A stretch of DNA of 64,000 nt from the NCBI GenBank assembly GCA_006386115.1, contig VFIW01000052.1:62001-126000 (forward strand). The letters are read 5' to 3'. Origin of the DNA: Globisporangium splendens (lineage: Eukaryota > Oomycota > Peronosporomycetes > Pythiales > Pythiaceae). The notes under the pieces were generated by a model, which ran no database searches, was not told the DNA's origin, and saw nothing but the letters and a program-made list of their open reading frames with translations. Made by a program: the position numbers and the translations under genes. Positions 16,081 through 44,654 of the stretch are shown here, one piece after another (positions within the stretch are counted from its first letter, which is position 1; each line of letters opens with the position of its first letter).

Positions 16081-16100
16081 GGTTCATTGCACAAATTGCC
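16081..16100 (+). promoter_or_regulatory. Relic initiator/flanking element of decayed peptide gene
   Basis: GGTTCATTGCACAAATTGCC corresponds in place and order to the initiator plus CAATTTGCC leader of the intact peptide genes, and lies 20 nt before the lost start codon. Confidence 0.5.
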
Positions 16101-16119
16101 TCCAACAACTCAAGCCAGC

Positions 16120-16294
16120 ACGAACAAGTTCCTTTGCCTCGCTGCCCTTCTCGTCGTCTCCATCACGCGGCTCGGACCGCCACCAGAGCCAACCAGGTGG
16201 TCGCTGAAGCCGTGCAAGAGAGCTCAGCCCTTCGTACCTTGATCCAAGTCGAGAACGAGCTAGCAAGATCCCACCCAAGAAGTGCTGCATCTAA
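16120..16294 (+). pseudogene. Decayed member of the NEIPxEKCCL secreted-peptide family
   Basis: The sequence aligns by eye along its full length with the intact gene at 44469-44654, including the signal-peptide part (NKFLCLAALLVVSI) and the end (KKCCI plus stop). The initiating ATG position reads ACG. The middle is out of frame and the copy is 11 nt shorter than its relative, mostly through a deletion just before the conserved C-terminal block. No functional product is expected. Confidence 0.85.
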
Positions 16295-16501
16295 GTGCGT
16301 CGCTGCCATAATTGTCCGAGTGACTTTCAATATTGTCCATTATTTTCTGTTCGCTATTTTTCCACTTTTGTTGAAGATTGCTCGTCGACCATCACTCTAT
16401 GCTACATCATGTGAATTAAGTTCAACCTGTCAACCGAAAATTCCTGTGGACGAGTAGCGAAATGCATCACAACAGGAGCACAATGAGCAAAATAACTCCA
16501 A

Positions 16502-16520
16502 GCTCATTCCGCGATTTTCT
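16502..16520 (+). promoter_or_regulatory. Initiator plus flanking element before S66 peptidase
   Basis: GCTCATTCCGCGATTTTC is close to the oomycete core-promoter consensus, 49 nt upstream of the ATG. A second similar match (TCACTCATCCACTTTGTCC) lies at 16541-16560. Confidence 0.6.
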
Positions 16521-16568
16521 CTCTGAGTGACTGAGCAGCTCTCACTCATCCACTTTGTCCAGCGCAAA

Positions 16569-17711
16569 ATGCAACAGCAGATGCTGCGTCGTCCACCGGC
16601 GCTCAAGGTAGGGGACACGATCGCATTCGTCGCTCCAGCGTCGGGACTCGCTGCGCTTGCCCCGCATCGACTGCAACAAGCCAAAGACTTTCTGGAGAGT
16701 GCGGGCTTCAAAGTGAAGATCTACCCGTCCGTCTCGCGAACGCCAAAGCAGAACATGCGGGTTTTGCGCGCATCCAGCGTCGCCAGCGGTCGCATCGACG
16801 ACTCGGAGGCTGGTGGCATCGAAGTAATGGGGTTCTACAGCTCAGCAGATGCGCAAACGCGTGCTGAGGAGCTCGTGGACGCATTTGAAGACCCTGAGGT
16901 CAAAGCGATTATCTGCACCATTGGTGGTCTGACGTCGCACGAGATGCTCGAGTACCTGGACTTTGATCGGATCCGCGAGCACCCAAAGATCTTCTCGGGG
17001 TTCTCCGACATCACTACGCTGCACCTCGCATTCTACGCGAAAACCAGGCTCTGCAGCTTCTACGGACCAAGCGCAGTGTGCCAATTTGGAGAGTTTCCTC
17101 AGCCGCTTTCGTATACGATGGAGTACTTTTGGAAAGCGGTGGCTGCCACAGATCCCATCGGCGCGATCGTGCCTTCGCTCGAGTGGACCGACGACAAAAC
17201 GGCGAACTGGCTCACCAAGGCAGATATGACGTACATGGACAAGATGAAGCCGAACGCCGGGTACGTGTGGCTTCGCGAAGGCAAAGCGCAAGGACGCATC
17301 CTCGGCGGCTGCCTGCCTACGATGCTCAATGTCCGCGGCACCGAGTACATGCCGGACCTCACAGGCGCGGTTCTCCTGCTGGAGACCCCTGAGGGCCACG
17401 AATTCGACAAGGGCATGCCGCTCGATGAGGCCAACGCGGTGCTCGGCTGCCTTCGTCTGGACGGCACGTTTAAGCGCATCAGCGGACTGGTGGTCGGCCG
17501 CGCGTTCGCGTACACAGACGCGCAGGTCGCCGAGCTGCAGCGGTTGATCATGTACCACACCCGCGACACGGCGTTCCCGATTCTCTACGGCGTCGATACC
17601 GGTCACACGAACCCGATCGTGACGATCCCGTTGGGATGCCAAGTCGCACTGGACTCCACCGCAGAAGCGGAGGCTGCGTTCACGATCCTGGAAAGCGGTG
17701 TGCAGGCGTAA
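16569..17711 (+). CDS. S66-family LD-carboxypeptidase (MccF/LdcA-like)
   Basis: Serine peptidase of the family that cleaves LD-peptide bonds in bacterial murein peptides or peptide-nucleotide antibiotics. The intronless frame gives 380 residues. The N-terminus has VGDTIAFVAPASG, the family's opening strand. The nucleophile Ser is in TIGGLTSHEML (residue 123), followed by KIFSGFSDITTLHLAF and SFYGPS. The acid region is LLLETPEGHEFD and the catalytic His lies in VDTGHTNP (residue 346). No signal peptide or membrane segment is seen, so it is probably cytosolic. The family is mainly bacterial, so acquisition by transfer or a role on bacterial food or competitors is possible; that is inference. 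A second ATG four codons downstream is an alternative start. Confidence 0.9.
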   Translation: MQQQMLRRPPALKVGDTIAFVAPASGLAALAPHRLQQAKDFLESAGFKVKIYPSVSRTPKQNMRVLRASSVASGRIDDSEAGGIEVMGFYSSADAQTRAEELVDAFEDPEVKAIICTIGGLTSHEMLEYLDFDRIREHPKIFSGFSDITTLHLAFYAKTRLCSFYGPSAVCQFGEFPQPLSYTMEYFWKAVAATDPIGAIVPSLEWTDDKTANWLTKADMTYMDKMKPNAGYVWLREGKAQGRILGGCLPTMLNVRGTEYMPDLTGAVLLLETPEGHEFDKGMPLDEANAVLGCLRLDGTFKRISGLVVGRAFAYTDAQVAELQRLIMYHTRDTAFPILYGVDTGHTNPIVTIPLGCQVALDSTAEAEAAFTILESGVQA

Positions 17712-18569
17712 GGAACGCTCGGAGAAATCAAGGCAAGCGGCGAGTCTCCATGACCACGCACGCAGCATAGTCACAAGTGGATAGAAATGGAAGAAACCAC
17801 GAATCCGGCATCATGTGCGGTGGAGAATGAATGGCGTGTGCAGACGTTGAAGCATACTGACCGCGCTTGTAGCCCTCCTGGTATGGAGAGAAAATGAAGG
17901 AAGAAACTAGAAGCTAGATGGATGCAAGGTCAGTCATGTACGGAAAGAACAGGAGGGTGGACTATAGACGAGTACTTTACCAACAGGCATGCTCTGTGCT
18001 GGAAGTGCATCTAAATCTCGAAGTAAACTCAATATTTCAAGGTAGAGGTGGTCCCAATGGAATGGTTTTATAGCCGTCTGCCCTTTTCCGTGCAGCAAGC
18101 ACTCTGGTTGCCTCTGGATGTTTCTGCTTTGTAATATGCACTTGAAGGGATGGATACAGATGGACCCCAGTCCAGCTGCTGTGTACATGCAGAAGTTGGG
18201 TACACTCTGAAGCCACTGCAGACGCTACGAAAGACTCGAGAGTCCGCGTCTTTCAGTTTCACTGAGCCAGATGGTCGTGTGAAACGAAGCATCTGGGAAC
18301 GCGGAACGGCTGTCCCTGTTGTCTTTCATGTGATACTGTAGGAGGCTGGTCACCTTCCTACTGCTTCAATTCCGCACGCGGCGGTTGCGTTTCTGTTCAT
18401 TTGCCATTCGCGTCATTCGCGCTTTTCTACCGTCCGACGCACCAGGTGGCGTTCTCTCTGTCTGGATCTCTCATTCGCGCATTTCCGAGCGCTTCTCAAG
18501 GTGTCCAAGTGGGTGACAACGGCACCGACGTGTCTCTACCAGCTCTCTCTCTGCCACCAGCCGTCAATT
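17712..18569. other. Intergenic region before PX-like gene
   Basis: No gene supported in 17712-18440. The last 100 bases form the promoter and leader of the PX-like gene. Confidence 0.5.
18469..18487 (+). promoter_or_regulatory. Initiator plus flanking element before PX-like gene
   Basis: TCTCATTCGCGCATTTCCG fits TCAYTYY plus CAWTTTNC spacing, 83 nt before the ATG at 18570. Confidence 0.55.
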
Positions 18570-19652
18570 ATGAGCAGCCCTATACAGTTTACCACTTCCT
18601 CATCGCCGCCGTTCAGCAGATCGGTCTTCTCGGACGCCCGAAGCCCATTCTCTCAAATCTCCCCGCAAGCCACATCAAGACGAGACGCCACCACCCGAAG
18701 AAGCAGCGCAAACGGCACCATGTCAAGACGAGTCGATACCATTCAGGTCAGCAGCCCAGTTGCACCAACGGACCAAGAGAGTCAACCACCTCCAACCACT
18801 CAAGACCTGAGTCTTGCGGCCGCTATCGCGCAAAAGATCGCAGACGACGAGATGCTGCGCACTAACCCGGCGCCCGTGCTGCACCTCGGCGGCGTGATCG
18901 ACACGCCATTTGAGTACGAGCTCGAGCACCAGTTTGCGCGCTTCACGGGGCTCTACGTCGTGAACGGACCCACAGCATCGCGCCACATCCGATACGCAAT
19001 GGAGGTTACGATTCCGGCGCTCCAACTACGCACGCGATGCATCCAGCGGTTCCAGGGCTTCTACGTTTTGCGCCAGAGGCTGCTGATGGCCACCAAGTGC
19101 TGCGGAGCGTATCACAAGAGGAAGCAGCAGCTCGCAGCCGAGTCCCAGCCACACAACCACGGACTCTTCTCCACGTGGCAGTTGCCGGCAGCGTTCCCAG
19201 GCTCTCCCTCGAAGTGTCATGCGTGTCAGAGCACGCGGAAGATGCTCAAGACGCTCAAGTTTCCCCGCCGCAAGTTCTTCGCCGCCAAGCCCGAGGAAAT
19301 CGAGGACCGGTCCTTCCAGCTCGAGGCGTTCCTGAGCGCGTGTCTGCGGCTGCTGGTCGAGGCGCCAGGCTGCGAGCGCGGCAAAAAGCTCTTCACGGCC
19401 GTCGTGGGTAAGTTCCTCGGCGTGAACCTGCTCGTGCACCTGTTCCCGAGTCAGTGCGAGTCGTTCTCCATGGCCAACCAAGCAGAAGTTGGCCTGCGCG
19501 GAGGCAGCGACGGCGCCATGACGGACGGACTGAGCTCGCGCTCCGAGAGCAGCGTCTCGGGCTTCCACGTCGGCGCGCCGTCCACGCGCACGCTGCTCTC
19601 GACGCACTCGTCCGCGGCGTCGCTCTCGCTGCACGATGGCGGCGAGGTCTGA
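18570..19652 (+). CDS. PX-domain-like protein
   Basis: Intronless, 360 residues. The N-terminus is Ser/Thr-rich and disordered. From about residue 140 the order of motifs is that of a phosphoinositide-binding PX domain. It runs from a strand with AMEVTIPALQLRTR, through an Arg and hydrophobic helix RFQGFYVLRQRL, and a long insert with CxxC pairs (KCCGAYH, KCHACQST), to a basic proline-poor loop LKFPRRKFFAAK and the helices RSFQLEAFLSACLRLL. The CxxC pairs inside the insert are unusual for PX. The tail is Ser-rich. A role at endosomal membranes is inferred from the domain only. The start is the first ATG after the promoter element. Confidence 0.65.
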   Translation: MSSPIQFTTSSSPPFSRSVFSDARSPFSQISPQATSRRDATTRRSSANGTMSRRVDTIQVSSPVAPTDQESQPPPTTQDLSLAAAIAQKIADDEMLRTNPAPVLHLGGVIDTPFEYELEHQFARFTGLYVVNGPTASRHIRYAMEVTIPALQLRTRCIQRFQGFYVLRQRLLMATKCCGAYHKRKQQLAAESQPHNHGLFSTWQLPAAFPGSPSKCHACQSTRKMLKTLKFPRRKFFAAKPEEIEDRSFQLEAFLSACLRLLVEAPGCERGKKLFTAVVGKFLGVNLLVHLFPSQCESFSMANQAEVGLRGGSDGAMTDGLSSRSESSVSGFHVGAPSTRTLLSTHSSAASLSLHDGGEV

Positions 19653-19876
19653 ACATGGCAAAGAGAGAAATGGTGTGGATTTTTATAGCGTATTTTATTC
19701 TTTGTATCAAGTTCATTTTGGAGTCGCATTTGAAATAAACAGGTTATTTTGTTTATTCTCGTGAGATACTCTCCAAAACGTACATAAGAAGGTATAGCTG
19801 TTCTTTGTGGGGAAGTTTATGTGAAGTAAACAGGTTTTGTTCCTCCTCTGCTGCACTCTCCCGTTCAGTCGGCAAA

Positions 19877-20919
19877 ATGACTCTCGATGCGCTTGTGCGC
19901 GAGTTCCACGACGTGGGCTTCGTCGCGATCCCAAAGCAGAAGCCGGACGACGCCGCCTCCTCCAATGCAATCCGCACTCCACCTCAGGCGCTCGTGGAGA
20001 GCGTCCACGCGCTCGTGACGCGCAAGTACGAGGCGCTGCTACAGCACGCGCAGCAGCGCGGCATCGACCTCACCAAGCCCGAGAACGCCGAGGTGATCCC
20101 GGGCTTCTACGTGCGCCAAGGCGGCCGCATCGACATGCAGATCAGCGCGCTGGCGTTCCAGAAGCGCGCCAAGTACGCTAGGACTAAGGAGAAGGAAGAG
20201 GAGGATGTGGACGTGGCGATAGACATGCAGCCGTTTGCAGACATGGCAGCGTGCTGGCAGCCGCTCGTGACAGAGATCTTTAAGGACGATGCGAGTCCAG
20301 CGACAGGTAGTAATGCTGGTACGAACGCAGTAGACGGCAGCGCTGCCGTCCCAGCGAAGATGTACCGCCTCGAGTACGTGGGCTGCGTCGTGTCGCGGCC
20401 GGGCGATGCGGACCAGAACTGGCACCTCGACGGCGTGCACCGCAACCTCAAGCAGCACGAACCAGGTACGTGACCATGGACTTCTCTTTTTTCTGAATAG
20501 ATTTGCTCCTACTCGTCTTGTCTGCTTAACTCGTGCCTGTAGCGGATCGCCTCAACGTGTTTGTGCCGCTGGCCGATTTGCGTGATGAGCGTCTCGGTGG
20601 CACGGAGATGAAAGCGCGCTCGCATTTCCTCGCCAAAACGGACAACGGTTCCTCTTTCGAAGCGTACGAGCACCTGGAGAGCGTGACGCATTTCGTGGAA
20701 GCTGGGACGCCATTGGTCATGGACTATCGAGTCTGGCACCGAGGGCTTGCCAATACGTCCGAGGCCACGCTGCGGCCACTGCTTTACTTCAAATATGTCA
20801 AGCTGCATGCGCCTTCTTCTGTTGCTAATGGTGGCACAAAGAAGCGAGCGGTTAGTGCGGATGCGAAGACAGCAAAGCCACGCAAACGTGTTGCACTCAT
20901 TCAAGTTGAGTCCAAATAA
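19877..20919 (+). CDS. PhyH-like 2-oxoglutarate/Fe(II) dioxygenase
   Basis: Exons 19877-20465 and 20543-20919 give 321 residues. The iron-binding motif HxD is in NWHLDGVHR (His about residue 183). The distal His is in DYRVWHRGLANTS (about 262), followed at the usual distance by an Arg and LLYFKYVK for 2-oxoglutarate binding. An acidic, Glu/Asp-rich insert of variable type sits before the HxD strand. The last 30 residues are basic (AKPRKRV) and may be a nuclear or nucleolar signal. Substrate unknown; phytanoyl-CoA hydroxylase relatives act on many small molecules and some on proteins. Confidence 0.85.
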
Positions 20920-20988
20920 TGACACGATAATAAAAACAACAGTAATCACATGAGACAAGCCACATGAAGCAAGCCATATTGACTTCAA

Positions 20989-23900
20989 TTATGCGATTTT
21001 GGCGCGGAATTCCTCGATTTGGGTGGATGAGAGCCCTGCGCGGCTCACGATGCGGTCCACGCGATCTTGCTTGACAGTGGAAACCGCCGCCGTCACCATG
21101 GGCAATGCCGTGAGTGCGTCGTCGTAGCTGAGCAAGTGGCGCCAAATCGCTGGCGATGCATCTCGCACCAAGTCCTGCGCGAGCAACTGACGCGCAAAAC
21201 TCATCGCAGCAGCTGCTGCTGGCCGCTCTTGTTGCTGTTCAGTGGTGGCTGATGGGGAACCAAACAGGTACATTGTGAGGTGGTGGATTGCAACGCAATA
21301 TACCAATGTACCACGTGTGGGCGTGATCTGCTGCTGGCAGAGCGCTTGCTTCATCAATTGGACCCACTGTTCGTCGCTGGCAGTTGTGGTCTTGCCTCTT
21401 CCATTTGTCAAGCGCATGAGCGTCGTGTTTGTTGTCAGTTGCGTATCGTCAAAGGCTTGGAGCGCGTGCAGAAGTCGGCAGTCCTGGAGCTCCTTCCAGA
21501 CCCATTTGCGGATCGTGGCAGGGAAATCGCGCGCCAGGAACAGCGTCACGCATCTTGCAAAGTGCACGTTCCCATACGACGACGACGTGAACTCGGCGAC
21601 CAGTTTCTCCAGAAAGTTCATCACGAGCTGTTCATCCGAGGAGAATGAGAGCCCAGCCGCAGCAGTCGCAGCGTCCTTCTCCGCCGTATTTGGGTCCTCC
21701 AACTGCTGGAACCGACGAAGGTTGCGCAGGATGCCGTCGTACAAGAGCGTCGCGCTCGTCTTGCTTTTCAAAACGGGTACGGCAAACTTTGGCAGGAACT
21801 GACGCAGTGCAGCATCCACGTGCTCGTCAAAGAGCACGTCAGTCCCAGCGAAAAAGACATGCAGCAAGTGGAACAACTTGTCCTCATCCCGCATTTCGCG
21901 CTGGTACGAAACGTCGATCTGACGCCACGCTGCGGATGCTGTAGTCGCCATCTCGAGTTGATACAGGAATCGGCACGTCGCGCTCACGATCAGCTTCATC
22001 TCGTCATTCTCAGCACGCGTGGGGGCAGTCGGACTAGGAAGTGATCTGTCACCACTGGTAGAACTAGCAGAACTAGCAAACTCCATGCGCGAAAACGGGC
22101 AAAAAAGCCAAAACCCAGGCAACGGGAGGTTCGAGCTGACGTACGCGTCTTCGTACTGCGGGATCCGCAGTTGACACGAGTTTTTCTCCGTCGGGGACAA
22201 CGACGAGGAAGCGGATTGCCAGGCGAAGTTCCGTTGCGAGTGCTGCTCTTGCTCGCGCGTGGTGTTCACGAGCGCCTGATAAATAGGAACGAGCACGTGG
22301 CTCATCGTGGTCGCGTCGACTTTGTTGACGAAAAAGCCCACTTTCTGCAAGATCACTGGATCAAACAGCACTTTCGAGAGCAGTTCGTGGATCCAGAACT
22401 CCTGGCCTGTCACGAATTGTTCCATGAGCTTCAGGCCGAACGCGTACATTGTCGCGACAAACGCGTCGTCGTAGAAATCGTTCGCGTTCGTCACAATCAT
22501 CTCGCACGTCGACACGAGCAAGTTGCACGTCAACGCGACGCAGTGGATGCTGCTGCTGTTGCTCTGTGCGGTGGCTAATGCATCCATAGCCTTGGCGACG
22601 GCGTTTTGCTGATGCAACCTAGTCCGCTGAAAAAAGTCTTTCGCCACGTCGTCGTCGTCCATGTCATCGCCCGAGATGCCGTGTCGAACCGCTTGCTGAT
22701 GGAAATGCACAACCGCCGCCAACGCTTCGGGACCATTTTGCATCTCCTGGAATGTCACGAGTGCGCTTTTGAAAGCGCTATCTTGCTGAATGAACTGGAA
22801 GACGTCGACAACGGGCTTGCGCTCCAAGTGATGTTTGGTTACCAGCGCACTTGTCGCCACGAGGAATCGGAACGCCGTAGCGATGACCATGAGTTCATCT
22901 TCTTTGGCGTGTGTTTTGGCCGTGGACATTCGCGTCAAGATATCCTCTTTCGCCTGGTTCATGAAGAAGCCCAGTTGGTTGAAGTAATGTTGCGCTTCGT
23001 GCACGCTTTCAAGGCCACAGAACGCTTCCAATGCCGCGAAAAGTGCGGCCGTCACACGCACAGGACGGCGATGGGAGTTTGCGTCTTGGTCTTGTTCGCC
23101 GGTAGGCTTTTGAACCAGATCAACACCACGGAAACCACACAGAATTGGAAACAGGTACGCGAAACAGTGGAAATCCAGTCCATACTTCAGCAGCACGCGC
23201 CAAATGCGAAGACTCTCGCATTGAACGTCGTGGAACAATGGCGACGTGAAGTTGCTTTGGATCGCGAGGAAGCCCTTCGTGCTCTGAATCACGCCGTTCC
23301 CAATCAGGAACGCAGCAACAGCCCTCGATCCTTGGCACAGCGCGCGAACGAGCACCAGCGCCTTGACCGTGACCCGCAGCGCCGTGTCGTTCTTCTCCTT
23401 CTCGTCCGCGTCTTGCAGCGTTAGCACAGCTTCGTTCTCAATGCATTGCTGCTGCAACGCCTTCATCAACTTCAGGTTCGTGCCGATATCCTTGGCGGCT
23501 TTCGGCGAATGATTCGCAATCTGAGTGAGGATATCGAGCATCTTCTCCGTCGAAGTCGGGTCCGGGAGCTGAATGCGCTCAAGAATGTACCGTAGCCGCG
23601 TACCAATGTCCATGTTCAAGAAGCCCTGCACGGGGTCCAGGAACGTCAGGTCTTCGTCTGAGATGCCGCTGACGTCGTTTCCGTCGTCGTCCTGGACATC
23701 GCTCGTGTCGATGTAAATCACTTCTTCGGTCGGTGGGATCTCGAGGCGCAGCAACTCAGTGGATGCGGACGTGGTTTCCTCTTTTACGTTGCGATGCAAA
23801 TGAATGCGTGGTGGGACTACGACCACGCCATATGCGCCTTCAAACGCACTCGCCTCGTTTTTCTGCTGTTGTAGCTCAACTGGTGGCACAAGGAACGCAT

Positions 23901-25236: not shown

Positions 25237-25853
25237 GCTGTTTGCATATTGGGAACCAACGGACAGCAAGAGAATGCTGGCTGCATTTTAGCCAATCCAT
25301 TTGGCATATCTTTGACTTTGGTGCAATCTATTGGTGGTAAATTCGGAAGTTTATTAATTTCTTGATTTGTGAGATATGATTGGATGAAAAGACGATTCGT
25401 GTGGAATGTTTGTGCCTTGCTGCATGTACCCATTCAAGCTACGCATTGCATCAATCTGCTCATTAAGATGCGATTGATGACGCCAGTACTCTCTCGTTGG
25501 CGCGATGCTCTCGAGTACACCACATGGACTCCACACTCGTGTAGACGCTATATGGGCATTATATATTCACTGCAATACTGCGGGTGCTGGAGAAAACATG
25601 GCGAAACCTCAAGATGACGCCAGATCTTTTTCCGCTGATGGGCAGCAGACACAGACGCACCCTCTTGCAATACGAGAATGCTGCTCTGAGTCCCGTGTTA
25701 CTTTTGCAATCCGAGGTCCGTCAGAACTGCTACTCCCACATCGCCTTTGGAGGAAAGTCCTCTTTCCTGCTCGGGCAGTGAGCCGAGCACTAAGGCTAGA
25801 GCTTAGTCGCAACGAGTTCATTCTGCAATTTGCCAACAACCTCCCAAGTCAAG
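25237..25853. other. Divergent spacer RPAP1 / secreted peptide
   Basis: AT-richer spacer. Apart from the peptide promoter at its right end it shows no supportable gene. Confidence 0.5.
25815..25834 (+). promoter_or_regulatory. Initiator plus flanking element of secreted peptide gene 1
   Basis: AGTTCATTCTGCAATTTGCC is a near-perfect initiator/flanking-element match 20 nt before the ATG. The CAATTTGCC half is identical in the peptide genes at 43.2 and 44.5 kb. Confidence 0.7.
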
Positions 25854-26018
25854 ATGAACAAGCTCTTTTTCCTCGCTACCGCGTTCCTCGTCACCATTGG
25901 TGTCGTCAACGCTGCTGACGCCGTCGCTGAAGCCAGCCCTGCGCTGCGCAGCCTCGCCCAAGTCGAAGCCGCTCGGGGTGAGATCAACGAGATCCCGACC
26001 GAGAAGTGCTGTCTCTGA
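25854..26018 (+). CDS. Small secreted peptide 1, NEIPxEKCCL family
   Basis: 54 residues. The first 20 (MNKLFFLATAFLVTIGVVNA) form a clean signal peptide with an AxA-like cleavage region. The mature part, about 34 residues, contains SPALRSLAQVEAARGEIN and ends NEIPTEKCCL. It has only the two adjacent terminal cysteines. The family is present as two other intact copies in this window, which share the signal peptide and the last 25 residues far better than the linker. Function unknown; no described family is recognised. Secretion is inferred from the signal peptide and strong expression from the promoter. Conservation of a short frame in three separate copies argues for a real gene. Confidence 0.82.
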   Translation: MNKLFFLATAFLVTIGVVNAADAVAEASPALRSLAQVEAARGEINEIPTEKCCL

Positions 26019-26988
26019 GCTCAATATCCCTCTGATCTGGTGCTGTGGCTCCAACGTCAGCCTCAGCGTCCACAGTCAAAGCGCCTGCTTTGTATGTAGC
26101 CTCCGTGAATGAGCTATTTGCTTGTAAGTGTAAACTTTGGTTCATTTTGAGCAAATAAAGTGCAAATCACGAAAATCTGAACAAGGATATGAGTCCTTTT
26201 GATGATTCCCTCGAAGCGTCCACTGCGCAACTGTGCACTGTCCATGCAGCCTTGAAGCCAGCGACTTGGCAACTTTCGCTTTGCTTTGTCGACTTGGGTA
26301 TGTAGCACGCTTGCGAAGGATACTTGTATTTGCACATCGATATGGCATGTGTTGAACCAGCTTTTCGTCTCACCAAGACGGTCTGCCAAGTGGCAAATGG
26401 GTACACTTGTGTCTAATGGAACATGCCGATTACAAGACCCGCTTCAATCAAAGCGCTCGGCAATTATAAAATCAGAGAAGTGATTTTGGCGCCAACGGAT
26501 CCGTCACCATGCAAGTGGCTCATCTCAAAAGTGCCGAACGTTCCACGCGCGATGTGAAGGCGAAAATGCAAGAAGTGCCAGCCACCAGTGGATTTTGCTG
26601 CGTGAATCCCCATGCCTGAGTTATTTAAACTTGAAAAAAAAGAATGCTCCTGTGTTGGAACCTCTCCTTTAAGGGTAAACCGGCATCAGTCGTGGCCATC
26701 CATTTTGCATTTATTTATCACATGACAAACAAACAACCAACACCTTCATATCCACCGGCCTCATGGACGTGTATGGTACAAAGAGGCATATATATATAAA
26801 ATGCAAACAAGAAAAATGAAAAGAATCATCCTGTGCCGTGTCCATCCAAAGTGTGTGTGCGTCGTCTGTGTGTGCGCGCGCTTGTGCGTGGAATGTTCGC
26901 GTTCGCGCTCTCTCCCTCCATCAAATGGCGATCTTTGTCCCCATCCTCGTCGTGCTGCTCCCCGCTGCGATCTTCTGGTCTCTGCGCG
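26019..26988. other. Intergenic region
   Basis: No gene supported. It contains an AT-rich stretch and a GGGTACAC box at 26399-26406, also seen near 29437 and 63567. The right end is the 3' flank of the coiled-coil gene on the minus strand. Confidence 0.5.
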
Positions 26989-27754
26989 TTATACGCCGAA
27001 GAAATCCATGGCCGAGGAGAGCGCTTGCCGCGTGCGCACGGCCGCGGGCTTGGCGTCCTTGGGGTTGACCGTCGGGTCAATCGATAAATACGAGTTCGGA
27101 TTCTGATGCGCGCGACCGCGGAGCTCCTGCTGGTCGCGCTCGAGGCTGCGCACGATGTGCGCCTCGTGCTTGCGCTTCTCGCTCTCCTCGCGCCGCACCT
27201 GCTTCTCGATGTCGTACTTCTTCTGGTGCATGCGGTAGAGCTCCTTCTCGGCGCGGCGAAGACGCTCCTCGATCACGGCGCGACGACGGCTCTCCTCCTC
27301 GCAGCGCTTCTCCCACATGTCCCGCTGTTCTTCCAGCATCACGCGCTCTTGTGTCCATTGTCTATTGTCATGATGAATTACGGGAAACATATTCATAATA
27401 GCGATTAAAGCTTGTCGACAAGAATCGCAACCCTTGCAAGACTTGTAAAAGCACACGTACCGTTCATCGTCGGCCTTTTGCGCATCGAGCTTGATACGGT
27501 CGAGCGCTTCTTGCTCCAATCTGCAATCAGCAAGCAAATGTTAGCTACAACTATCATTTTCGAATATCCTGGTGTGTGTGTGTGTGTTTGGGCAGGTACC
27601 GTCGCTCGAGATCTTCGTTCACGTATTCGAGATCATTCTGTCGTCGCGCCTGCGCCTCCACGAAGCGCTTGGCGTCCGCGAGCTCGTTCTGCAGCCGCTG
27701 GACAAGCTGGCTGTCCTTGCGGTGCTCGCGCTCAAACAACGGCACGCTGTCCAT
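26989..27754 (-). CDS. Coiled-coil protein, unknown
   Basis: Exons 27754-27600, 27520-27461 and 27361-26989 give 195 residues, phases matched. Nearly the whole protein is charged coiled coil (LVQRLQNELADAKRF; EEQRDMWEKRCEEESRRR; EKELYRMHQKKYDIEKQ). The last 35 residues are not helical, include SYLSIDPTVNP and end SSAMDFFGV. No domain recognised; a structural or adaptor role is possible. Intron 1 contains a TG microsatellite (27571-27590). A further 5' exon cannot be excluded because no convincing promoter element precedes this ATG. Confidence 0.65.
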
Positions 27755-29458: not shown

Positions 29459-32400
29459 TTATGGACAATCGTAATTCTTAAACGCACGCACCATGGGCTC
29501 ATAATGGACGCTCGTGCCTGTGCGTCCATGCGCACGCACGGCCGCCAGCAGCACGGCTTGATCGTTCTGCTGCTGCGTGAACGCGTCGCCGCACGTCAGG
29601 CGCTTGCAGCGCATCCGGAGCTTGACGCCAAGCCCCACAGCCAGCGCCGTCGCGATCGCCACGTCCTCCCAGAAGCCCTCACACGCATACGTGAAGAACG
29701 CGCACTCGATGCATTCAGTGGACCCCGGAGGCGCGTCGCCGCCCGAGGGACATGGCCAGCACGTCTCTAGACCTTCCTCGTCACCAAACGTGCCCTGGGG
29801 ACATGGTGAACACGTCAGCATGCCAAGCGAGTCCGAGTACGTACCAATGGGGCACAAACGGCACTCTGAAGAGCTGCTTCCGCTTTCCTCATCGGACGAG
29901 AAGTAGTACGTCCCCTTGGGGCATTTCACGGCACGAGACGACTTGAGGGAAGATGAGGAAGGAAGCACTGTGATGTTGACGAGACTCGGTGAAATATCGA
30001 TCACGTGCTGGTGATGCAGCTGCCGAACAAGAAAATCCAGGAAACCTGGACGCGAGATCGTCTCGACCAACAGTTTGTTGCCATTGCCATCGACCTCATC
30101 GTCTTCTGAGTCGCTGCCGGATCCGGCCACTTTGCTGCTCCTGCTGCTGTTGGCCTTGATGGACTCGACCATATTCTCAAACGAAGCACGCGTCGAGTCG
30201 ACAAACTTGTGGAATTCGTCCGTCTTGGTCTTGAGTTTCTGGAACATCGTGGCATTTTTCTTCTGGCGCTTGGGCAATGGCGCCGATAATGTCTCGAACG
30301 CAAAATCCACGACCAGCAAGTCGTCCGACGGCGTCTGGGGATCCAGAGCTATCAAGTGCAGCTCCATGTTCGTGACTCCAAATGCCGCAAGACTGGCTGT
30401 CCACGCGAGTCTCAGGTTTCCAAGGTTATCATCACCTGATGGAGCCGCACCTTCAGCTCCACTTGCATGCATGGCGCCTCGAAAGTCTCGAGCACTGATG
30501 CTTGCTATTGTCATTGTCGCTGTGGGCCACAGGATCGCTTCGTAGATCTCGCCAGGTTCTGCAACGGAGCAATTCGAACTGCCACCAACCAGACTGAACG
30601 ATGGCCATGGACATTCCTCACAACTCAAGCTCCCGGGAAAGTCTGCAAAATGGTTTGGTGGACAGCGTATCGGATTCCATGCGCCTTCTCTATCGACGTA
30701 AGTGCCAATTGGAGCGACGTCGCAACTCGTGGCACCCTCTTGACCAGCAAAATTTCCTACTGGACATGGCGTACACTGCAATGACCCTGAGGCTGCTGCA
30801 AACGTACCAGGAGGACAAGGTTCACAAGTCAGGCGCTTGGCATTGTTGGACGAGCCAGGCGCGCAGAGAACTTGTGTCACATTTCCATCAGATGCCAAAA
30901 TCAATCCATTCCCTGGCTCAGGCTTCTTCATGCACTCAGCATTTCCGTATCCGTCCGCTGCCATCTCTTCGGGACATGCTTGACACAACAACTGCGCGCT
31001 CGTGTTCGTGAACGTGTGAGGGGGGCATCTCGTACACGTGCTCCTGGCCACGTCAAAGAAACTCCCTGGTGGACATGGGATGCACTCTGGGTAGCCTGGA
31101 AACGGCGCAACGTAGCCTTTGGGACAAGTCTTGCAGTCCGTCGAGCCTTCATCGCTCTGGTACGATCCTATGGGGCAAGGCAGACACTCAGCTTCGCCTT
31201 GGACTTGCGTGTAGGATCCTGGTGGGCATGGTCGACAATGGTTTTGGCCGTGAGTGCCAGCATATGTGCCAGGCATGCACGGCGAGCACTTCCTTGACGC
31301 AATTCCGTCTGCGAAGTGACCGGGGAAACATGGCGAGCACGTAGTCATTCCATACTCACTGGCAAATGTGCCTGCTGGGCATGGGCGGCATCCTTCGGAT
31401 CGCGTCTCGGTTGCGAAAGTTCCTGGAGCGCAAGGAGTGCAATACTCATTGCTGGCATTCGAGTGGGATGTGATGTTGGCCAACGACACTGTGAACGTGC
31501 CGGCAGGGCACTCTGAGCACTGGTGACCGGTGCTGGCGTTTGCATAGAAGCCTGATGCGCAATACTTGCACCCGTCGATGCCGTCGACTCGAAACGCAAG
31601 TGACGTCGTATTGCTGTTGCTCACGGCCGCGGAATGTGCATCGCCGCACTCACATGTGAGATTGGTTGACGCAAGAAATTCTGGCAGTGGACATTTGAAG
31701 GCGTTTCCGCTGAAAGCACTGGGGTCTTTCGACGCAATTCTGTTGTTCAAACAGCATGACGTACTTGAGTAACTCATACAAGCCAAAACATCGAGCCGCA
31801 GAATCGAGATGGCGTACACGTGTGGTGGAAGCACCGATAGAGGAAGCACTTCAGAGAAGCGATTGTAGCTGACATCACTGCAGCAGACACAAGCAATATT
31901 GAAGCATATCAGTCAAACTTTGCTGGGAAGTATTGCGAGCCACTCTTTACTCGAGCAAAGATTTGGAAACTTACAACGTCTGCAGGGAAGTGAGCGTCGA
32001 AATGTTTGGAACAACGCCGTGAAAGCCATTGTGTGAAACATCACTGCCATAAGGTTATTACAAGCAGAAGATGAGCGAGCGGCAACAGCACAGTGGCAGT
32101 GACTAATGACGACTCACAAGACTTTTAGGCTCGAGTCTTCGTCTGGGTCGCGAGGATCTTCACGCCCTAGAGATGCAATATCACCAGGTAGCTCCCCCGT
32201 CAGCATGTTGTGCGACAAATCCCTGCAACGAAGCAGCAAGACAAATTGCAATGAGAACGGAGTATGGTTCGCTTAATCGCAGTCAGAACGGATGAATTGT
32301 TCACGTACATGGAGACGATATACTTGAGCGCTTGCAGTCTTGGGAGCGATCCAAAGATGCGATTGTGGCTAATGTTGCTGCTCAACCGAAGTCGTTAGCT

Positions 32401-33673: not shown

Positions 33674-34014
33674 TTTCGCGTTGGCTTGTGAGCTTTTCTT
33701 TGTGCGAGTCTGTTGCAAATAAGAAAATGAGGCCATCCTGTAGGTTGCCAGCAAGTGTTGTGCCGAGAAACGAAACAGTACGACACGCCCTAAAGGTTAA
33801 TCACGCCGTTAGTATTATTCAGTGAGACGGTGAATTCTTGACATACATGGTGATTTTCTCGTCCTTGGCGGACTAAAGTACATGCGCGCACAGCACAGCT
33901 CTCTGGACCTCTCTTTGGTGGTGACGCTAGCACGCAAACAACAGCGATGGGTACTGGTCTACAACAAAAACGGTGGTCTCTTATTACTGCCCTCCCTGAG
34001 TGGGGCTTGTGGTT
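33674..34014. other. Spacer between LRR gene start and TPX2 end
   Basis: Contains the LRR gene promoter: on the minus strand TCATTTTCTTATTTGC at about 33717-33732 resembles initiator plus flanking element, supporting a start at 33673 or 33661. No gene. Confidence 0.5.
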
Positions 34015-36861: not shown

Positions 36862-37548
36862 TGTCGTCTCTTGAGCGTAAATAGCAGCAGCAGCAGCAAG
36901 TGGCGTCGTGGGGTTGTGCAGGGTTCTTGCGATCGGAGAGCTTCTGTGGTGGAGACTGTTACAGAGTCGGACTACACACACAGATAGAGGAGGGGGTACG
37001 CTCTAATGCGCACGCAAGCTCTCTCTATTAGACGCACACACAGAGCGCGTTAGGAGGCAAGTGAAGGCGGCCGATCGCTCCCTTTTCCGCACGCGTTCGT
37101 GCTGCTTTTTCCGCTGCGGTTCAAATTTTGAAAGTCGGCGGGGAACGAAGAGTGCGTGGTGTTGCCTGTAAAAGCTTATCAACTGCAACAAGAACGTGGG
37201 AGAGATCGTAGTATAATATTAAACGGACAGATGGGTTTATACAGATTATGGGTGGATGGAAAAGAGGCAACAAATGGAAGGTACTGATTTTGAGGAATGA
37301 AAGGAATAAAACCTTTGTCGGTTCTACTGCAACTGTGCGTGCAACCTTCAACAACAGGTATGAGCTTCAATTCATATGACAACCCTAGATGTGAAGGTAT
37401 TCAAATCAAAACAAACACCAGATAAACACGTTGTCACTATATGCAGGACTATGTACTATAAAAAGGTAATATATATGCACTCTTTGTGTGTCAGTGGCGT
37501 CGAAGCTCCTGCATTCATCTGCGCATTGAACCACCGACAGACACGAAG
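36862..37548. other. Divergent promoter region TPX2 / pyrophosphatase
   Basis: 687 bp shared 5' flank of two divergent genes. Contains AT-rich sequence 37195-37480. No gene. Confidence 0.5.
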
Positions 37549-38521
37549 ATGGCGCTTACGATGCGCCGCATTGCGCTGCTGCGCGCGGCCGCCACGCCTC
37601 GTGCTCTTGTGCGTCATTGTCTCCTGTTCGTTCTATAGACTAGCCCACATATATCGTCCATGTGTCACTGACTGAATGCGTTTACCTGCAGCACACTGTG
37701 CGACGCACGGGCGAGCCTGAGACCGCGGAATGCCGCTACTTTTTCTTCGACCGCATGGGACGCAAGCAGTCGCCATGGCACCACATCCCGCTCATCTCCC
37801 CAGAGATCAACGCAGCGGTGCCGCACGGCAACATCTTCAACTTCGTCAACGAGATCCCCAAAGGGTGAGTCCTTCCTTGCATGCAGTAAGCGTGTCCATA
37901 CGTCTCTCTGTATGTGTCTAATGCTTGTCTTTATATCATAGCGCGCGCGCCAAGATGGAGATCGCCGGCGAAGAAGAGTTCAACCCGATCAAGCAGGACG
38001 TGAAGAAGGGCAAACCGCGCTTCTACCACTTTGACTCGCTGGTGAACTACGGCTGCCTGCCGCAGACGTGGGAGGACCCGAACCATGTGGACGCCGACAC
38101 CAAGTTTGGCGGCGACAACGACCCGATCGACGTCGTGGAGATCGGCCGCCAGGTCGCTCAGGTCGGCGACGTGTACCCGGTCAAGGTGCTGGGTGTGCTT
38201 GGCATGATTGATGACGGCGAGACCGACTGGAAGGTCATCGCCATCAACGTCAATGACCCGCTGGCCGACCTCGTGCACGACGTGCGCGACTTGGCCAAGA
38301 CGGAGCTCCACGACATCGTGCCGCAGATCCACCGCTGGTTCCGCGACTACAAGATCCCGGACGGTAAGCGCCCGAGCGAGTTCGCGTTCAACGGTGAGGC
38401 CCAGTCGCGCGACTTCGCGGTCGACGTCATCTACCAGACCCACGAGTCGTGGAAGCAGCTCGTCGGCAACGAACTCACGACGCCCACCAAGCTCTGGACG
38501 AGCAACCATCCGGTCATGTAA
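37549..38521 (+). CDS. Inorganic pyrophosphatase, family I, probable mitochondrial
   Basis: Hydrolyses pyrophosphate to drive biosynthesis. Exons 37549-37608, 37692-37864 and 37942-38521 give 270 residues. The first exon encodes a basic, Ala/Leu/Arg-rich presequence (MALTMRRIALLRAAATPRAL) typical of mitochondrial import. The catalytic domain has MEIAGEEEFNPIKQD, YGCLPQTWEDP, the metal-binding signature DNDPIDVVEIG and a second Asp/Lys cluster (DDGETDWKVIAI), ending with ELTTPTKLWTSNHPVM. The length and eukaryotic-type C-terminus fit the family. The first intron donor (GTGCGT) was chosen because it keeps frame and matches donors elsewhere in the window. Confidence 0.94.
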
Positions 38522-38811
38522 GTAGAACATAACACGTCTTCTGGGCCACTTAATCAACACTGACAACGACGCAAACGATTCAGACAAAGAATGGCAATGT
38601 GGAAAAGAAAATGTGCTGCTTTTTTCTCGTATTTTGTTAAATATATCGTCGACGAAATTCATTCATTGGCGCACGCGAAGTGTGGCGGTGACAAGGGAGA
38701 AAGTGGGAGCAAGAAGAGGAGGAACGTCTCTATTCGGCTGGACCCTACGGCTGGTGGGCTGACGCTGTTCAACTCTGAGAAAGTCCAGGACCAAACAAGC
38801 ACAATCAATTG
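38522..38811. other. Convergent spacer
   Basis: 3' flanks of the pyrophosphatase and the FHA/RING-variant gene; nothing else seen. Confidence 0.5.
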
Positions 38812-41419
38812 TTATGCGTCTTCTATCGTCCCAAATGCCCCCGACGCCTGATCATTGCTGCTGCTGGTCATCACGATCGGACTGCCAGTGTGGCGCCGGT
38901 GCGAGTCCATATCCACACGTGGGCTCGCGAGATCCAGACCTGCCAATGAGTCTGCGATGTCGTAGAGCATGTGTTCGCGTCGCTGCACCAGCGCACTTCG
39001 TGTGCGCGGCAAATTCGCCGCCGCCGTGTTGCGGTTGTTGTGTTGCGACGAATGCGAGAAACTCGCGACGCGCACAAACGGCTGGTGGTGGTGGCGTGCG
39101 GCGTCTCGCCCTCTGCTGCTTCCATCCAGGACGTGTCCGTGATCACGAATAGCATCTTCATCATCAAACAGATGATGCAGTCGCATCGTGTCGCCCTGGC
39201 GCTGGCCATCCGGACGCTGGCGGGTGATGGCGTGGAAACCGTCGCCTGATCCTGAACCTCTCGAGCGGCCAAGCAGCTCGTGGAGAGAGTACGGCGACGA
39301 GACGATCTCGGCGCTCGGATCATGGATCATGCTCGGTCCATTCACTTCGAATCGGTTCGGCACGGAACGATGCGGCGCTGGTCGACTCCTCATGGCAGCA
39401 TTGCTGCTGTTGATACCGGATGATCGCGCCGACACGGGGGTACTACTCGCGTCCACATTAGTTGGTGTCAACGCAAAGCTGGCCGCGTCTGCTGCCGAAG
39501 GAGACGTGACTGTGGCGCCGTACTCGGTCCCTTGCCCTTCTGCATTCTCGTTGTTGCCGCCCGACCATTTCCATTTCTTCTTGGATTTCAGAGTCAAGAT
39601 TGTGCGGCCGATCTTCACATGGACCACTTTGTTCCACTCCAGTTGCAGTGGGCGGCTCAGAAACAGCATCGTACCATTCGAACTCGACGCGTCCGTCAAA
39701 AAGAAATTGTCCTGAGGCAGCAAAAAAGAATAGAGAACAGATGTCAGAAAATGGTTCCATAATATGGAATACGACCATCAATATCGACGCAATGCGTACA
39801 TCTTTGTAGGTGATCTTGGCGTGAAGCTGCGACACCGTGCGGTAGCGCAGTGTCATGTTGTTGGTCGTCGATCGCCCGATCGTCAGCGACTGCTGGTTCC
39901 GCGGTAAGCTGCTCAACACACATAACAACAATGCTACGTTAGCTTCCAATGCAATGCAACAATTAGAGACGATACAAGCCACGTACTTGGCAAAACTGAG
40001 CTGGAAGCGCGTGTTGGTGAGCGCGGTCTGTCGATTCCGCGTCTCGTGCTGGGTCACCACGGCGAACGTGACGTACGGTGGCGGCAGCTTCTGCGCCAAA
40101 AGCGACACGACGCGACCGTCGTCCAGCTTCACGCTCGTTAAATAGGTAGCTTTGCAGATCGTGCACACGTCGAGACCGTCCGTGTTGGTGACGGCGCACA
40201 CTTTCTGGTTCGGGTTCGTGCCGTCGGCATCCAAGTTGTTGTTCCAGCGCTGGAGACAGTTGAGGTGGACGTACTTGGTGTCACCCTTGCAGTTGCACGG
40301 CGCCACGAGCGGGTTCTCCTCCGGTTCCTCGTCGCCGTCGTAGCAGATATAGCAGAACTTCTTGCCGCTCGCCATGCCCGAGGCGCCAATGGAGCGTTCG
40401 ACACCACCATTCATCGACGCCGAGAGCTCGTCGTCATCCTCGCACGTGTCCTCCATCGCCAGATTATCCGCAGTCTTCCGGTCTTCCTCGGATTCGCCCT
40501 CGTCCGACGTCTCACCCGCACGGAAGCCGCGTCGATGGTGCTTGTTGTTGTTGCTATTTGCAGGATGGTGTCCACCAATTACGTCGTCTTCATCGTCGTC
40601 ATCGTGCTCGCCGTCGTGCGGCTGCTGCTGCCGTTGGCTCTCGGTTGGGTGATGGAACGTCTGCTGCAGAGGGAGGCTGAGGTAATGCTCCTTCAAAAAG
40701 TCGTACTCCTCCTCGCTGAGCGATTCCTGGGTCTCTTCCCTCGTCGTGCGGTTCACTTCACACACCACGAGCCCCACGGATCCAATGCGCAGCAGGTCGC
40801 CGATCTGCAGGTTGTGCGGCACGATCGGGTACTTTTTGCTGCCGAGCACGCGGCAGACGCCCGTGTGACCCGAGAAGCGCTCGATGGACGAGCCGCACAC
40901 GAACCGGTCGACCGTATTGTCGTACTTGATCGCGAGCGTGGTCGCGCGCGTGTCGTTGAGCACGCACTCCTTCATGGGCACCACGGATCGTTTCGGAATT
41001 CCATCCTCCCGCACCTCGTCCTGGTCGTCAAAACCCGCACTCTCCTCCTCGTCGTTCTGAGCGTAACTGGACGGCGGCGGCGACGGGAAGTCGCGCATGT
41101 GCAGCGCGTGGAAGCTCGCCGACTGGTAGAGCAGGTCGCGGTCGAGCATGGCCGTGGCGTCGTGGCCGGTCGGCGTGCTCGCGTTGTTAGTGCTGAGGAA
41201 CGCGGCGTGCGGGAACGCGCCGCGCTGCGGACCGTGCAGGATCGCGCCGTCCTCGTCCACCGTGAACTCGAGCTTGGGCAGCGTGCGGCGGCCGCGGCTC
41301 GTGCTCACGCGCGCGCCCGTGGCGTCCGTCGTGGTGCGCACCTCTCCGGGCGTCGTCGTCTCCGCCTTGACCTCCACGCGCCGCACGTTCTTGAAGCCCA
41401 TATGCTTGGCGCGCAGCAT
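38812..41419 (-). CDS. FHA and RING-variant domain protein
   Basis: Exons 41419-39987, 39908-39800 and 39711-38812 give 813 residues. An FHA-like fold occupies about residues 150-225 (VCGSSIERFSGHTGVC, then GDLLRIGSVGLVVCEV). After an acidic, His/Asn-rich linker comes a C4HC3 RING-variant (RINGv) finger from about residue 356: CYICYDGDEE, LVAPCNCKGDTKYVHLNCL, and a final VCTICKATY. A canonical second FHA domain spans both introns: LTIGRSTTNNMTL, VSQLHAKITY, LTDASSSNGT. RINGv proteins are usually membrane E3 ligases, but no membrane segment follows here, so this looks like a soluble phosphothreonine-reading ligase. The C-terminal 200 residues are disordered. Confidence 0.88.
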
Positions 41420-43061
41420 GAGTGGTTACGCTCGTTTGCGACTTGCGGGGTTACGCTTGCTGCTTGTTGTTGGGATAACCTGTCGGCTTGTTCGGCAATG
41501 TTCGCGGTTGCCGACTTTGCTTGTATGCTGTTTGTCTGCAGACTCGGTTTGCAGCACTTGCGTGCGTTGGTTTGCTTGCTGGACGGTCGCGGCGACCGGT
41601 CGAGTGAGGCACTTGCACAGTAACAACAGAGATCCAGCAAATGCAACAGACTCTCTGTCGGTGCGATAAACGGGCCGCAGCAAACAAGGCGTGCTGATTG
41701 CTGTGCTGCTGGTTGAGTGCGACTGCTTGCTCGTGTTTGTTTGCAGCCGTCCGTCCGGTCACCACTCGCGCTTGCGTTCGTCCGCCTAGAAAGCCAGGAA
41801 GTCGCTGTTGTTGGGCGATTGTGGACGGTGTCGCAGTCGCAATCTTCCGATACAAAATTTGCTTCTTTTCGTGTGTGTGGAGGAGTAACTTGCTGCTGAT
41901 TGCAGGTCCTTCTTTCTTTCGTTCTGTTTTTTTTTCTTTCCTTCTCTTCTGTTTTTTGTTTCCTTCGCATTACTTACATCACATAAATTACTTCCGCACC
42001 TGCGACAACGCAAACGAAAGTGCAGCAAGCCTCTGCTGGGTATGAACGAATGTAATTTTCATTTCAGCAATTCGAAGTTTTTTTTATTTCGTTTATTTTC
42101 CTTTCCTTGCACTTTATATTTTGCAGATCGCGTGTGTGTTGCGAGAGGGTGGAAAAGGGCAGGAAAGTGGTACACACCCCAACCCAAAAGTGCAGTCAGT
42201 TCGTAAGGGGGGACCTGACAAAACAGCAGCAAATACGCACCGAATATGCGCGCACATGTACACTTTTCTGCTCACGATCCAGTTTTCCAGATTCCACTTG
42301 CAGCAGCACATTTGCTCATATGCATTCGCTTGAGCTTATACTGCAGCAGGAGAGGAGCGCGGCGTGAAAACAGAAGACGTGCTGCAGCCAAGTTCAGGAT
42401 CCGGATTTCCAGATTTCATATTGCCATTGTGGAATGTCGGACCAGATCTGACTGACTTTTTGTGCTGAAAAAGAGTCAGGCGGCCATCTTCAATCAGTCA
42501 CAAAGCGCAGTCCACTGTCTCTCCCCATAGTGAATGAGTGAGTGCGACGAGCACACAACCATGTCGTATCAACGCTTTTATATGACTTCTGAAAAGCATA
42601 TGCGGTTTAGTCGCGGCGTATAATCGATCAAAGCATCCAAACTGCAGCTCTCCCGCCTAATGCGCTTCGAACATGAGATTCCAATTCGATCGAGGGTTTC
42701 AACTGGAAAAGCGATAACGAAAGTTCGTTGAGTGTCACTGGCGTTTTGCGCCAGAATGATCACAAATGTCGTAAATCAACTCCCTATTTCAGATTATTCA
42801 GCCAAGTGGATTGCAGGTGCAGATTGTGGTTGCATCAAAGACACATTTCAAAGAACTGAGAGGCAAGCAAAGTTACTTTTCGATTTACACGTGATCTCTA
42901 GAACGCGATTTCCGCAAAAATCGCATTTCTCAAGCCAAACAATAAATCAAATTCTCTGCTCTGCTGGTTAAACACGGACTGGCATGGACATTCTGGTTCG
43001 ATTCACAGTGGTGGCACCTTGGGGAAGCTCCCACAGCTTGACGATCCGAGGGACATGGAGC
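41420..43061. other. Intergenic region, 1.6 kb
   Basis: Begins with two GGTTACG copies (41424-41457) just upstream of the FHA/RING-variant start, then poly-T/TTC-rich sequence around 41910-41970. No supportable gene. Confidence 0.55.
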
Positions 43062-43223
43062 TCAGAGACAGCACTTCTCGGCTGGGATCTCGTTGGTCTC
43101 ACTCAGAGCGGCTTCGACTTGAGCGAGGCTGCGGAGTGCAGGGTTGGCTCCCGCCACGTCAGCGGCATAGGTGACGCCAATGGCGACGAAGAAGGCGGCA
43201 GCGAGGAAGAAGAGCTTGTTCAT
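43062..43223 (-). CDS. Small secreted peptide 2, NEIPxEKCCL family
   Basis: 53 residues. Signal peptide MNKLFFLAAAFFVAIGVTYA, near-identical to peptide 1 at 25.85 kb, then a mature part of about 33 residues with NPALRSLAQVEAALSETN and the end NEIPAEKCCL. Unlike the other two intact copies it is on the minus strand. It sits 1.2 kb from peptide 3, the two being divergently oriented. Differences from peptide 1 are mostly substitutions that keep residue character, as expected for a selected gene. Function unknown. Confidence 0.82.
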   Translation of the reverse strand: MNKLFFLAAAFFVAIGVTYAADVAGANPALRSLAQVEAALSETNEIPAEKCCL

Positions 43224-43252
43224 CTTGGCTTGGGAGGTGGTAGGTGGTTGTC

Positions 43253-43271
43253 GGCAAATTGCGGAATGAGC
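43253..43271 (-). promoter_or_regulatory. Initiator plus flanking element of secreted peptide gene 2
   Basis: On the minus strand GCTCATTCCGCAATTTGCC, an essentially exact match to the oomycete core promoter, 30 nt before the ATG. Confidence 0.75.
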
Positions 43272-44426
43272 AAACTTGTGAATGAATGGCTTCTCTTGCT
43301 GCAAGCAGCGTTCTCTGTTGCTACTCTCGCTCAGTTAGAGGTTACAAGAGGAAACAAGAGACGCGGCCGGAGATGACCCCAGATCGTGCATGAGCCATTG
43401 ATCGATGGCTGACCGATACATACTTCAGTGGATCTACTTCGGTGGGTACAGCGAGCTTGGTCGCGGTTCGCTCATCACGATGATACGGAATGCCATGTTG
43501 GACAAGTTGTTGAATCGACGGTCTTTCGCGAAAGGCGCGTACTTCAGTAATGCGCATCCTGAAGTACCCACCCAGCACAGGCGACAGCGCTGTACACGAT
43601 GCATGCGATGCGCAGTAGATGCTGCCGAACCAATATCATAACGCGCAAGCGATGAGTCATGGATAGTGTGCAAATTCCTTGGTCTGATAAACACTTGAGG
43701 AGCTTTCAGCCATGCTGCACGTTATAGCTCTTGGGGACGATGCTGAACTGTGCAGCAATTTGGCGTGTGCTGCTTGGACGAAAACATCAGCGATTGGCTG
43801 GACAGAAGGAGTGTTTTCTGTTCTACTGTTATTATTCTCATTATAGCAAGTGCAAGTTGTCAATTTGTATTACGTGGCGAACTTGTTTTGGGCATCCTTG
43901 CACGACGCGGTCTCTAGAACGCGGAGGTGATCAAGATGAACTGTGCTCAGTCAGGTGATGTGCTCTTTTAAATTCGTACGGGCGATGACCCGAGGCACTT
44001 CAAGAACTACCAGTTAGTCGCGACGAGATTGCCCAGAAAGTGGTCCGTTTGCAGACCCGAACTGGTGCCAACGGCGGGACACCCACGAATTTCGCCATCT
44101 TCCTGATCTACGAGACGATGAGCTGTGAAGCCATAGTGACAAGTTGACTCCAGAAATGGAAAGCGTGGTGTGCGTCGCCAACAAAGGATGCTGCTCTGCA
44201 TCTTTTATGGAAGACGCGGGTTGGATACGATTTGGACCAAGATGACATCAGGACGGATCCTCAGTTTACAGTATGAGGGACACTAAAGATCCCTCCTGGC
44301 GTCATCAATATCAGTCAGCCTCTGCTTAGCACTTTCAGCACCAAAACACTAACATAGATGCATCAAAGCATAGCGAGGTTTCTGTCACCCTTCAGGCGCT
44401 CTGCATCGTGAAATTGAACTCAACAT

Positions 44427-44450
44427 CTCATTTCATTGCACAATTTGCCA
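44427..44450 (+). promoter_or_regulatory. Initiator plus flanking element of secreted peptide gene 3
   Basis: TCTCATTTCATTGCACAATT followed by TGCC. Two overlapping initiator-like TCATTYY/CATT units precede the same CAATTTGCC box as in genes 1 and 2, 19 nt before the ATG. Confidence 0.65.
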
Positions 44451-44468
44451 CCACCAACTCAGGTCACC

Positions 44469-44654
44469 ATGAACAAGTTCCTCTGCCTCGCTGCCCTCCT
44501 CGTCGTCTCCATCGGAGCCACTCAGGCCACCACTCAAGTCAACCTGGCCGTGGCCGAAGCCGTGCAGGAAAACCCAGCTCTCCGCGCCTTGGCTCAAGTC
44601 GAGACCGCTCTCGGTGAAACCAACGAGATCCCAGCCGAGAAGTGCTGCCTCTAA
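44469..44654 (+). CDS. Small secreted peptide 3, NEIPxEKCCL family
   Basis: 61 residues, the longest intact member. Signal peptide MNKFLCLAALLVVSIGATQA, then a linker TTQVNLAVAEAVQE that is longer than in the other two. The conserved NPALRALAQVETALGETN follows, then the end NEIPAEKCCL. It is the closest relative of the dead copy at 16.12 kb, with which it shares NKFLCLAALLVVSI and VAEAVQE. Only the terminal two cysteines lie in the mature part. Function unknown. Confidence 0.82.
   Translation: MNKFLCLAALLVVSIGATQATTQVNLAVAEAVQENPALRALAQVETALGETNEIPAEKCCL

Follow-up and report, generated by a model that had tools for sequence, protein, structure and literature searches.

We analysed a 64-kb stretch of the genome of the root-rot water mould Globisporangium splendens (contig VFIW01000052.1, positions 62,001 to 126,000, forward strand; hereafter "the window") and, by sequence comparison, found that three intact genes and one broken copy within it are one clustered family. 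The intact genes most likely encode precursors of short extracellular peptides, with a tail that carries an adjacent pair of cysteines as the active or cross-linking end. They share a signal-peptide-like start and their predicted mature part is under constraint, and all four copies carry a promoter element of the initiator (INR) plus flanking promoter region (FPR) type. The family looks undescribed, and appears to add a constrained, very small, secreted-type peptide family with an unusual cysteine arrangement to the small secreted-type proteins of oomycetes, in a genus that includes crop pathogens. The members and the spacer between two of them are as follows (positions within the window).

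about 16120-16294, + strand: broken fourth copy (pseudogene), with no ATG at the aligned place and with small deletions within its reading frame
25854-26018, + strand: intact peptide gene, 54 residues, L-type (MNKLFFLA...), matching the C-terminal 54 residues of GenBank model FI667_g10943 exactly
43062-43223, - strand: intact peptide gene, 53 residues, L-type, from translation and genome search
44469-44654, + strand: intact peptide gene, 61 residues, F-type (MNKFLCLA...), from translation, genome search and tail pattern
about 43270-44431, no strand: spacer separating the promoter elements of the head-to-head genes at 43062 (-) and 44469 (+)

A clustered family with two fixed ends

The three intact frames, proposed in a sequence-only reading of this DNA, translate to 54, 53 and 61 residues as that reading described. 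A search of the 53.3-Mb genome (195 contigs) with the peptide of the 44469 gene returned only four places (E values of 1e-32, 3e-11, 7e-10 and 0.0012), the second and third being the other two intact copies and the last the broken one, and the peptide of the 25854 gene recovered the three intact copies. A degenerate tail pattern, IP..KCC[LI] followed by a stop, had four matches in the 53.3 Mb, all within the same 28 kb, compared to none in the reversed control. Together, the E values and the pattern counts rule out chance similarity, and neither the peptide searches nor the tail pattern revealed further family copies in this genome. Weaker matches (L008 at E 0.96; L013 and L014 at about 0.2, covering query residues 3 to 33 only) are not among the four places that match the tail pattern.

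The fourth copy had been called dead, and its loss of the start codon at the aligned place, together with its small deletions, confirms that it is broken. Of the intact copies, the one at 44469 resembles it most (75% over 224 bases), and the stretch aligned to residues 17 to 59 of the 44469 query is still free of stops. The tail lies in no ATG-started frame of at least 20 residues there; a frame of 65 residues from 16045, which begins upstream of the promoter element, contains the signal-peptide half only.

Searching 5.8 billion proteins for relatives returned five, of which three are metagenome proteins on contigs of 1,012 to 1,343 bases and the other two are G. splendens FI667_g10943 and the G. 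polare protein Gpo141_00014413, a record marked partial. The motif scan covered eight rows, of which P0005 repeats P0001, leaving seven distinct unbroken members. All seven have the MNK start (preceded by eight residues in P0004, a partial model), the central motif P[AS]LR[AS][LV]A and the terminal N.IP..KCC[LI] followed by a stop. P0009, the most distant relative (E 1.7e-7), retains both the central motif and the tail although it was no part of the profile that found it. The earlier description of NEIPxEKCCL as invariant holds for the three intact copies of the window, whereas across relatives the tail is better written N[EQK]IPx[EA]KCC[LI]. Likewise, the linker after the signal peptide does vary in length, as had been noted (7 to 16 residues before PALR), but so does the one after PALR (2 to 14 residues). 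Each of the seven has exactly two cysteines past residue 20, adjacent and in the second- and third-last places, which bears out the claim that the terminal pair provides the only mature cysteines. The stretch around the central motif is alanine-rich and acidic or neutral, and net charge ranges from 0 to -5 across the seven. In the tree of these members, P0006 joins the two L-type copies (support 99/98), and P0009 is a long branch of unsure placement.

At the other end, the three peptides of the window start with a hydrophobic stretch (mean hydropathy of residues 4 to 17, 2.46 to 2.75) that ends in [VT]xA at residue 20, that is, with alanine at position -1 and valine or threonine at -3. A cut at residue 20 would leave a mature form of 33 to 41 residues with a charge of -3 to -4. 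Processing beyond removal of the signal peptide, as previously suggested, is unsupported, with no dibasic (Kex2-type) cleavage site in any of the eight rows.

The ratio of nonsynonymous to synonymous substitution rates (dN/dS), calculated by the Nei-Gojobori method for each pairing of the three intact copies, with one-sided Fisher tests, differs between the parts of the peptide. For the whole frame it is 0.30, 0.43 and 0.30. For the predicted mature part it is 0.16, 0.23 and 0.28 (p = 0.0001, 0.004 and 0.04), well below the value near 1 that the sequence-only reading had named as contrary to it, and we conclude from these comparisons that the mature part is under constraint. From PALR onwards, the p values are 0.0006, 0.007 and 0.09. 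In the signal peptide the ratios are 0.70, 1.23 and 0.31, and no pair reaches p < 0.05.

A shared promoter element

Each of the four copies is preceded by an oomycete core promoter element of the INR+FPR type, at nearly the same distance from its start, and every intact gene consists of one short frame behind it.

16083-16100, + strand: element of the broken copy, beginning 37 nt ahead of the aligned start position, no mismatches to TTCATTNNNCAAWTTGCC
25817-25834, + strand: element of the 25854 gene, beginning 37 nt ahead of the ATG
43253-43270, - strand: element of the 43062 gene, beginning 47 nt ahead of the ATG, one mismatch
44432-44449, + strand: element of the 44469 gene, beginning 37 nt ahead of the ATG

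With up to two mismatches allowed, the pattern matches four times in the 64 kb, once per copy, where 0.24 matches are expected; since it was derived from these four copies, the agreement with them is no independent evidence. When one mismatch is tolerated, a shortened form adds two matches, at 16503 and 37287 (1.21 expected in all). Blocks of homology among the copies start at the INR and end shortly after the stop codon (some 20 bases beyond it for the L-type pair), the extent expected of a retained transcription unit.

Genome-wide, the form of the pattern that begins with Y has 92 exact matches, four of them at the family copies, compared to none in the reversed control, whereas the pattern TGYTGYHTNTRR alone is uninformative (1149 + 1170 matches compared to 676 + 715 in the control). 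We sampled 40 of the 88 sites outside the family, roughly in listed order, a sample that omits six neighbouring sites on C75, C113 and C131 and all those after the first site on C133. At 39 of the 40, the first ATG opens a frame of at least 50 residues, at a median offset of 68 bases from the start of the pattern. Eighteen of the 40 pass a crude signal-peptide test (hydropathy plus small residues) that has no background rate of its own, and this is an upper figure because the sample contains near-identical duplicates and, by eye, a few membrane or cytosolic-looking proteins; the published annotation of G. splendens strain rgcb-1 predicts 713 secreted proteins among 17,350 (PMC7163027). Four of the 18, chosen by eye, were identified by Pfam as three elicitins and one Kazal inhibitor. 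In Phytophthora infestans, promoters of the INR+FPR type have been tied to higher mRNA levels, developmental regulation and infection-related functions (PMC3599244). The strict pattern combined with a short frame offers a workable and cheap route to overlooked secreted genes. As a separate observation, strict INR+FPR sites frequently occur genome-wide in close pairs on opposite strands.

The element also bears on how these genes have been annotated. The sequence-only reading expected them to be missed by annotation, which is consistent with two copies, as no public protein for the 43062 or the 44469 gene was returned by the protein search, but not with the third, which sits in FI667_g10943. 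In this model of 95 residues, 41 residues read from a first exon at 25598 are joined onto the peptide of the 25854 gene. Were it correct, an upstream exon would be spliced on and the product would lack an N-terminal signal peptide, a reading that can point to the model's existence in GenBank and to the open exon at 25598. We consider this quite improbable: the implied intron would span the INR+FPR element at 25817-25834, and the other members, with the exception of P0004, start with MNK at the aligned methionine. Moreover, although RNA hints were used throughout the annotation of this genome (PMC7163027), we saw no sign of support for this exon. The first exon of FI667_g10943 is likely a prediction error.

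Comparison with known families

No effector, elicitor or hormone family with this tail had been recognised from sequence alone, and the searches agree with this. Pfam yielded no family for the window peptides at an E value of 0.001; at values up to 1, six families each matched one of the seven members, the best being a ferredoxin transit-peptide model (E 0.0027). In NCBIfam, a prokaryote library scanned with four proteins, TIGR02448 matched P0009 (E 0.018; 15.3 bits, compared to a cut-off of 53.85), and the best match among sequences in the PDB had an E value of 1.9. We judge these weak matches to be due to chance or to signal-peptide-like sequence. A literature search, mostly without subscription papers, found no description of the tail, its sole match to EKCCL being unrelated by its title and the start of its abstract.

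The closest likeness is to the PcF/SCR proteins and the elicitins, which share with this family a signal-peptide-like start, small size and clustered paralogues; moreover, the three elicitin genes and the Kazal inhibitor gene found elsewhere in the genome share its strict INR+FPR pattern. Members of those two groups contain at least six cysteines, set apart from one another, whereas the present peptides have only two in the mature part, adjacent and near-terminal. Both families were therefore rejected as matches: all eight rows have just two mature cysteines, in one adjacent pair, and neither family appears among the Pfam matches, including the six weak ones, although the same scan recognises three elicitins elsewhere in this genome. 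As in the RXLR and YxSL[RK] proteins, where a signal peptide comes first, the signal-peptide-like start is followed by a short conserved motif containing LR (here P.LR..A). The specific motifs are nevertheless absent from all eight rows (R.LR after the signal peptide; Y.SL[RK] past residue 20), and the C-terminal end, which in the present family is among the most conserved parts, is highly variable in the YxSL[RK] family behind a conserved N-terminal part (PMC2926784). Crinkler-type (CRN) effectors were rejected on the strict LFLAK motif, found past residue 20 in none of the eight rows, and with regard to the CHxC motif, the only cysteines of the mature parts are the adjacent pair. Fungal a-factor-type prenylated pheromones and Rab-type CC tails also end in cysteines, and a very short precursor is a further likeness. 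These differ from the present family, in which none of the eight rows has a CaaX box, so lipopeptide pheromones of the CaaX type were rejected as well; a signal peptide would direct the chain into the lumen of the endoplasmic reticulum (ER), away from prenyltransferases.

Possible roles of the peptides and their genomic neighbours

We propose that the signal peptide would be removed in the ER, giving a peptide of 33 to 41 residues that may reach the surface of the hyphae or the apoplast of the plant. As this chain has no cysteine besides the adjacent pair, the two may form a strained vicinal disulfide or, as we judge likelier, interchain bonds, which would covalently link two of the peptides, or one of them to a partner protein. 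The conserved end and the free linkers suggest that function resides in the tail, with the linkers acting as spacers of free length. For this putatively secreted family, a role as an extracellular effector-like or colonisation peptide has, in our estimate, about an even chance, and we rank it first because of the promoter class, ahead of a wall peptide and then of a signal of the oomycete's own. If the tail is active, it would offer a short, synthesizable peptide for testing plant recognition or cell-cell signalling in oomycetes.

Several points weigh against this proposal. The signal-peptide call draws on hydropathy and the -3/-1 residues alone, and the AlphaFold model, mostly helix (mean predicted local distance difference test score 57, predicted template modelling score 0.24), is too poor for a fold search. 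The dN/dS values come from three short sequences, with small numbers and pairs that are not independent; one of the three pairs is not significant over the PALR-to-end stretch, and the ratio in the signal peptide rises to 1.23. Further, the family is small (three intact genes) and constrained, whereas many host-targeted effectors belong to expanded, diversifying families.

The peptides could instead be the oomycete's own signal, a hormone or pheromone-like factor in which the paralogous L-type and F-type lines are kept for different messages. The constrained mature peptide and the low copy number favour such a role, as does P0006, a metagenome protein that has no counterpart of its own among the copies of this genome and groups with the L-type copies, which suggests an L-type line older than the G. 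splendens genome. Phytophthora mating hormones are terpenoids, and we know of no receptor, both of which count against it. Titles of cited papers indicate mating types in both of the named species, G. splendens and G. polare, but two species make no statistic. We regard this alternative as improbable, and its more specific form, a Globisporangium hormone or pheromone system in which old paralogous peptides with the cysteine-pair tail are read by an oomycete surface receptor, as a distinctly long shot, although, to our knowledge, it would give the oomycetes their first intercellular peptide signal encoded by a gene. Somewhat better placed, yet still unlikely, is a structural role in the wall or in adhesion, with the cysteine pair bonding covalently to proteins of the hyphal or oospore wall. 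The signal-peptide-like start, the terminal cysteines and the linkers of free length would all suit it, but Pfam convincingly matched no lectin or wall domain, and most wall proteins are longer or repetitive.

That the frames are mere relics of a larger gene or transposon, kept by chance, is the least probable of these explanations and has been largely refuted. In its favour are the one broken copy and the longer GenBank model of the 25854 copy. On the other hand, the mature part has a dN/dS well below 1, the promoter element precedes all four copies, and the homologous blocks end shortly past the stop codon, with four distinct relatives (P0004, P0006, P0007 and P0009) sharing the same end point directly after CC[LI]. 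The spacer at about 43270-44431, the only flank searched genome-wide (by a search that skips simple repeats and very common words), matches itself alone, and a scan of 23 distinct large frames in the window revealed no transposon domain. Neither a larger parent gene nor a transposon, named at the outset as contrary findings, was seen in the sequence examined.

Other frames of the window deserve mention. About 230 bases past the broken copy, a frame of 394 residues (16527-17708, + strand) contains both LD-carboxypeptidase (Peptidase_S66) domains, with an INR-like element (one mismatch) directly ahead of it at 16503-16517; this kind of enzyme is best known from bacteria, and acquisition by horizontal transfer is possible. 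Between the peptide copies lies a cysteine-rich frame (29459-31912, - strand) with eight ephrin-receptor-like stretches and an NCD3G domain, resembling the ectodomain of a surface receptor. A polycystin-type cation channel frame is found at 54769-56820 (+ strand). Just downstream of the 44469 gene, a frame at 44827-45474 (+ strand) has a weak WD40 match and is perhaps a remnant or a single exon of a WD40 protein.

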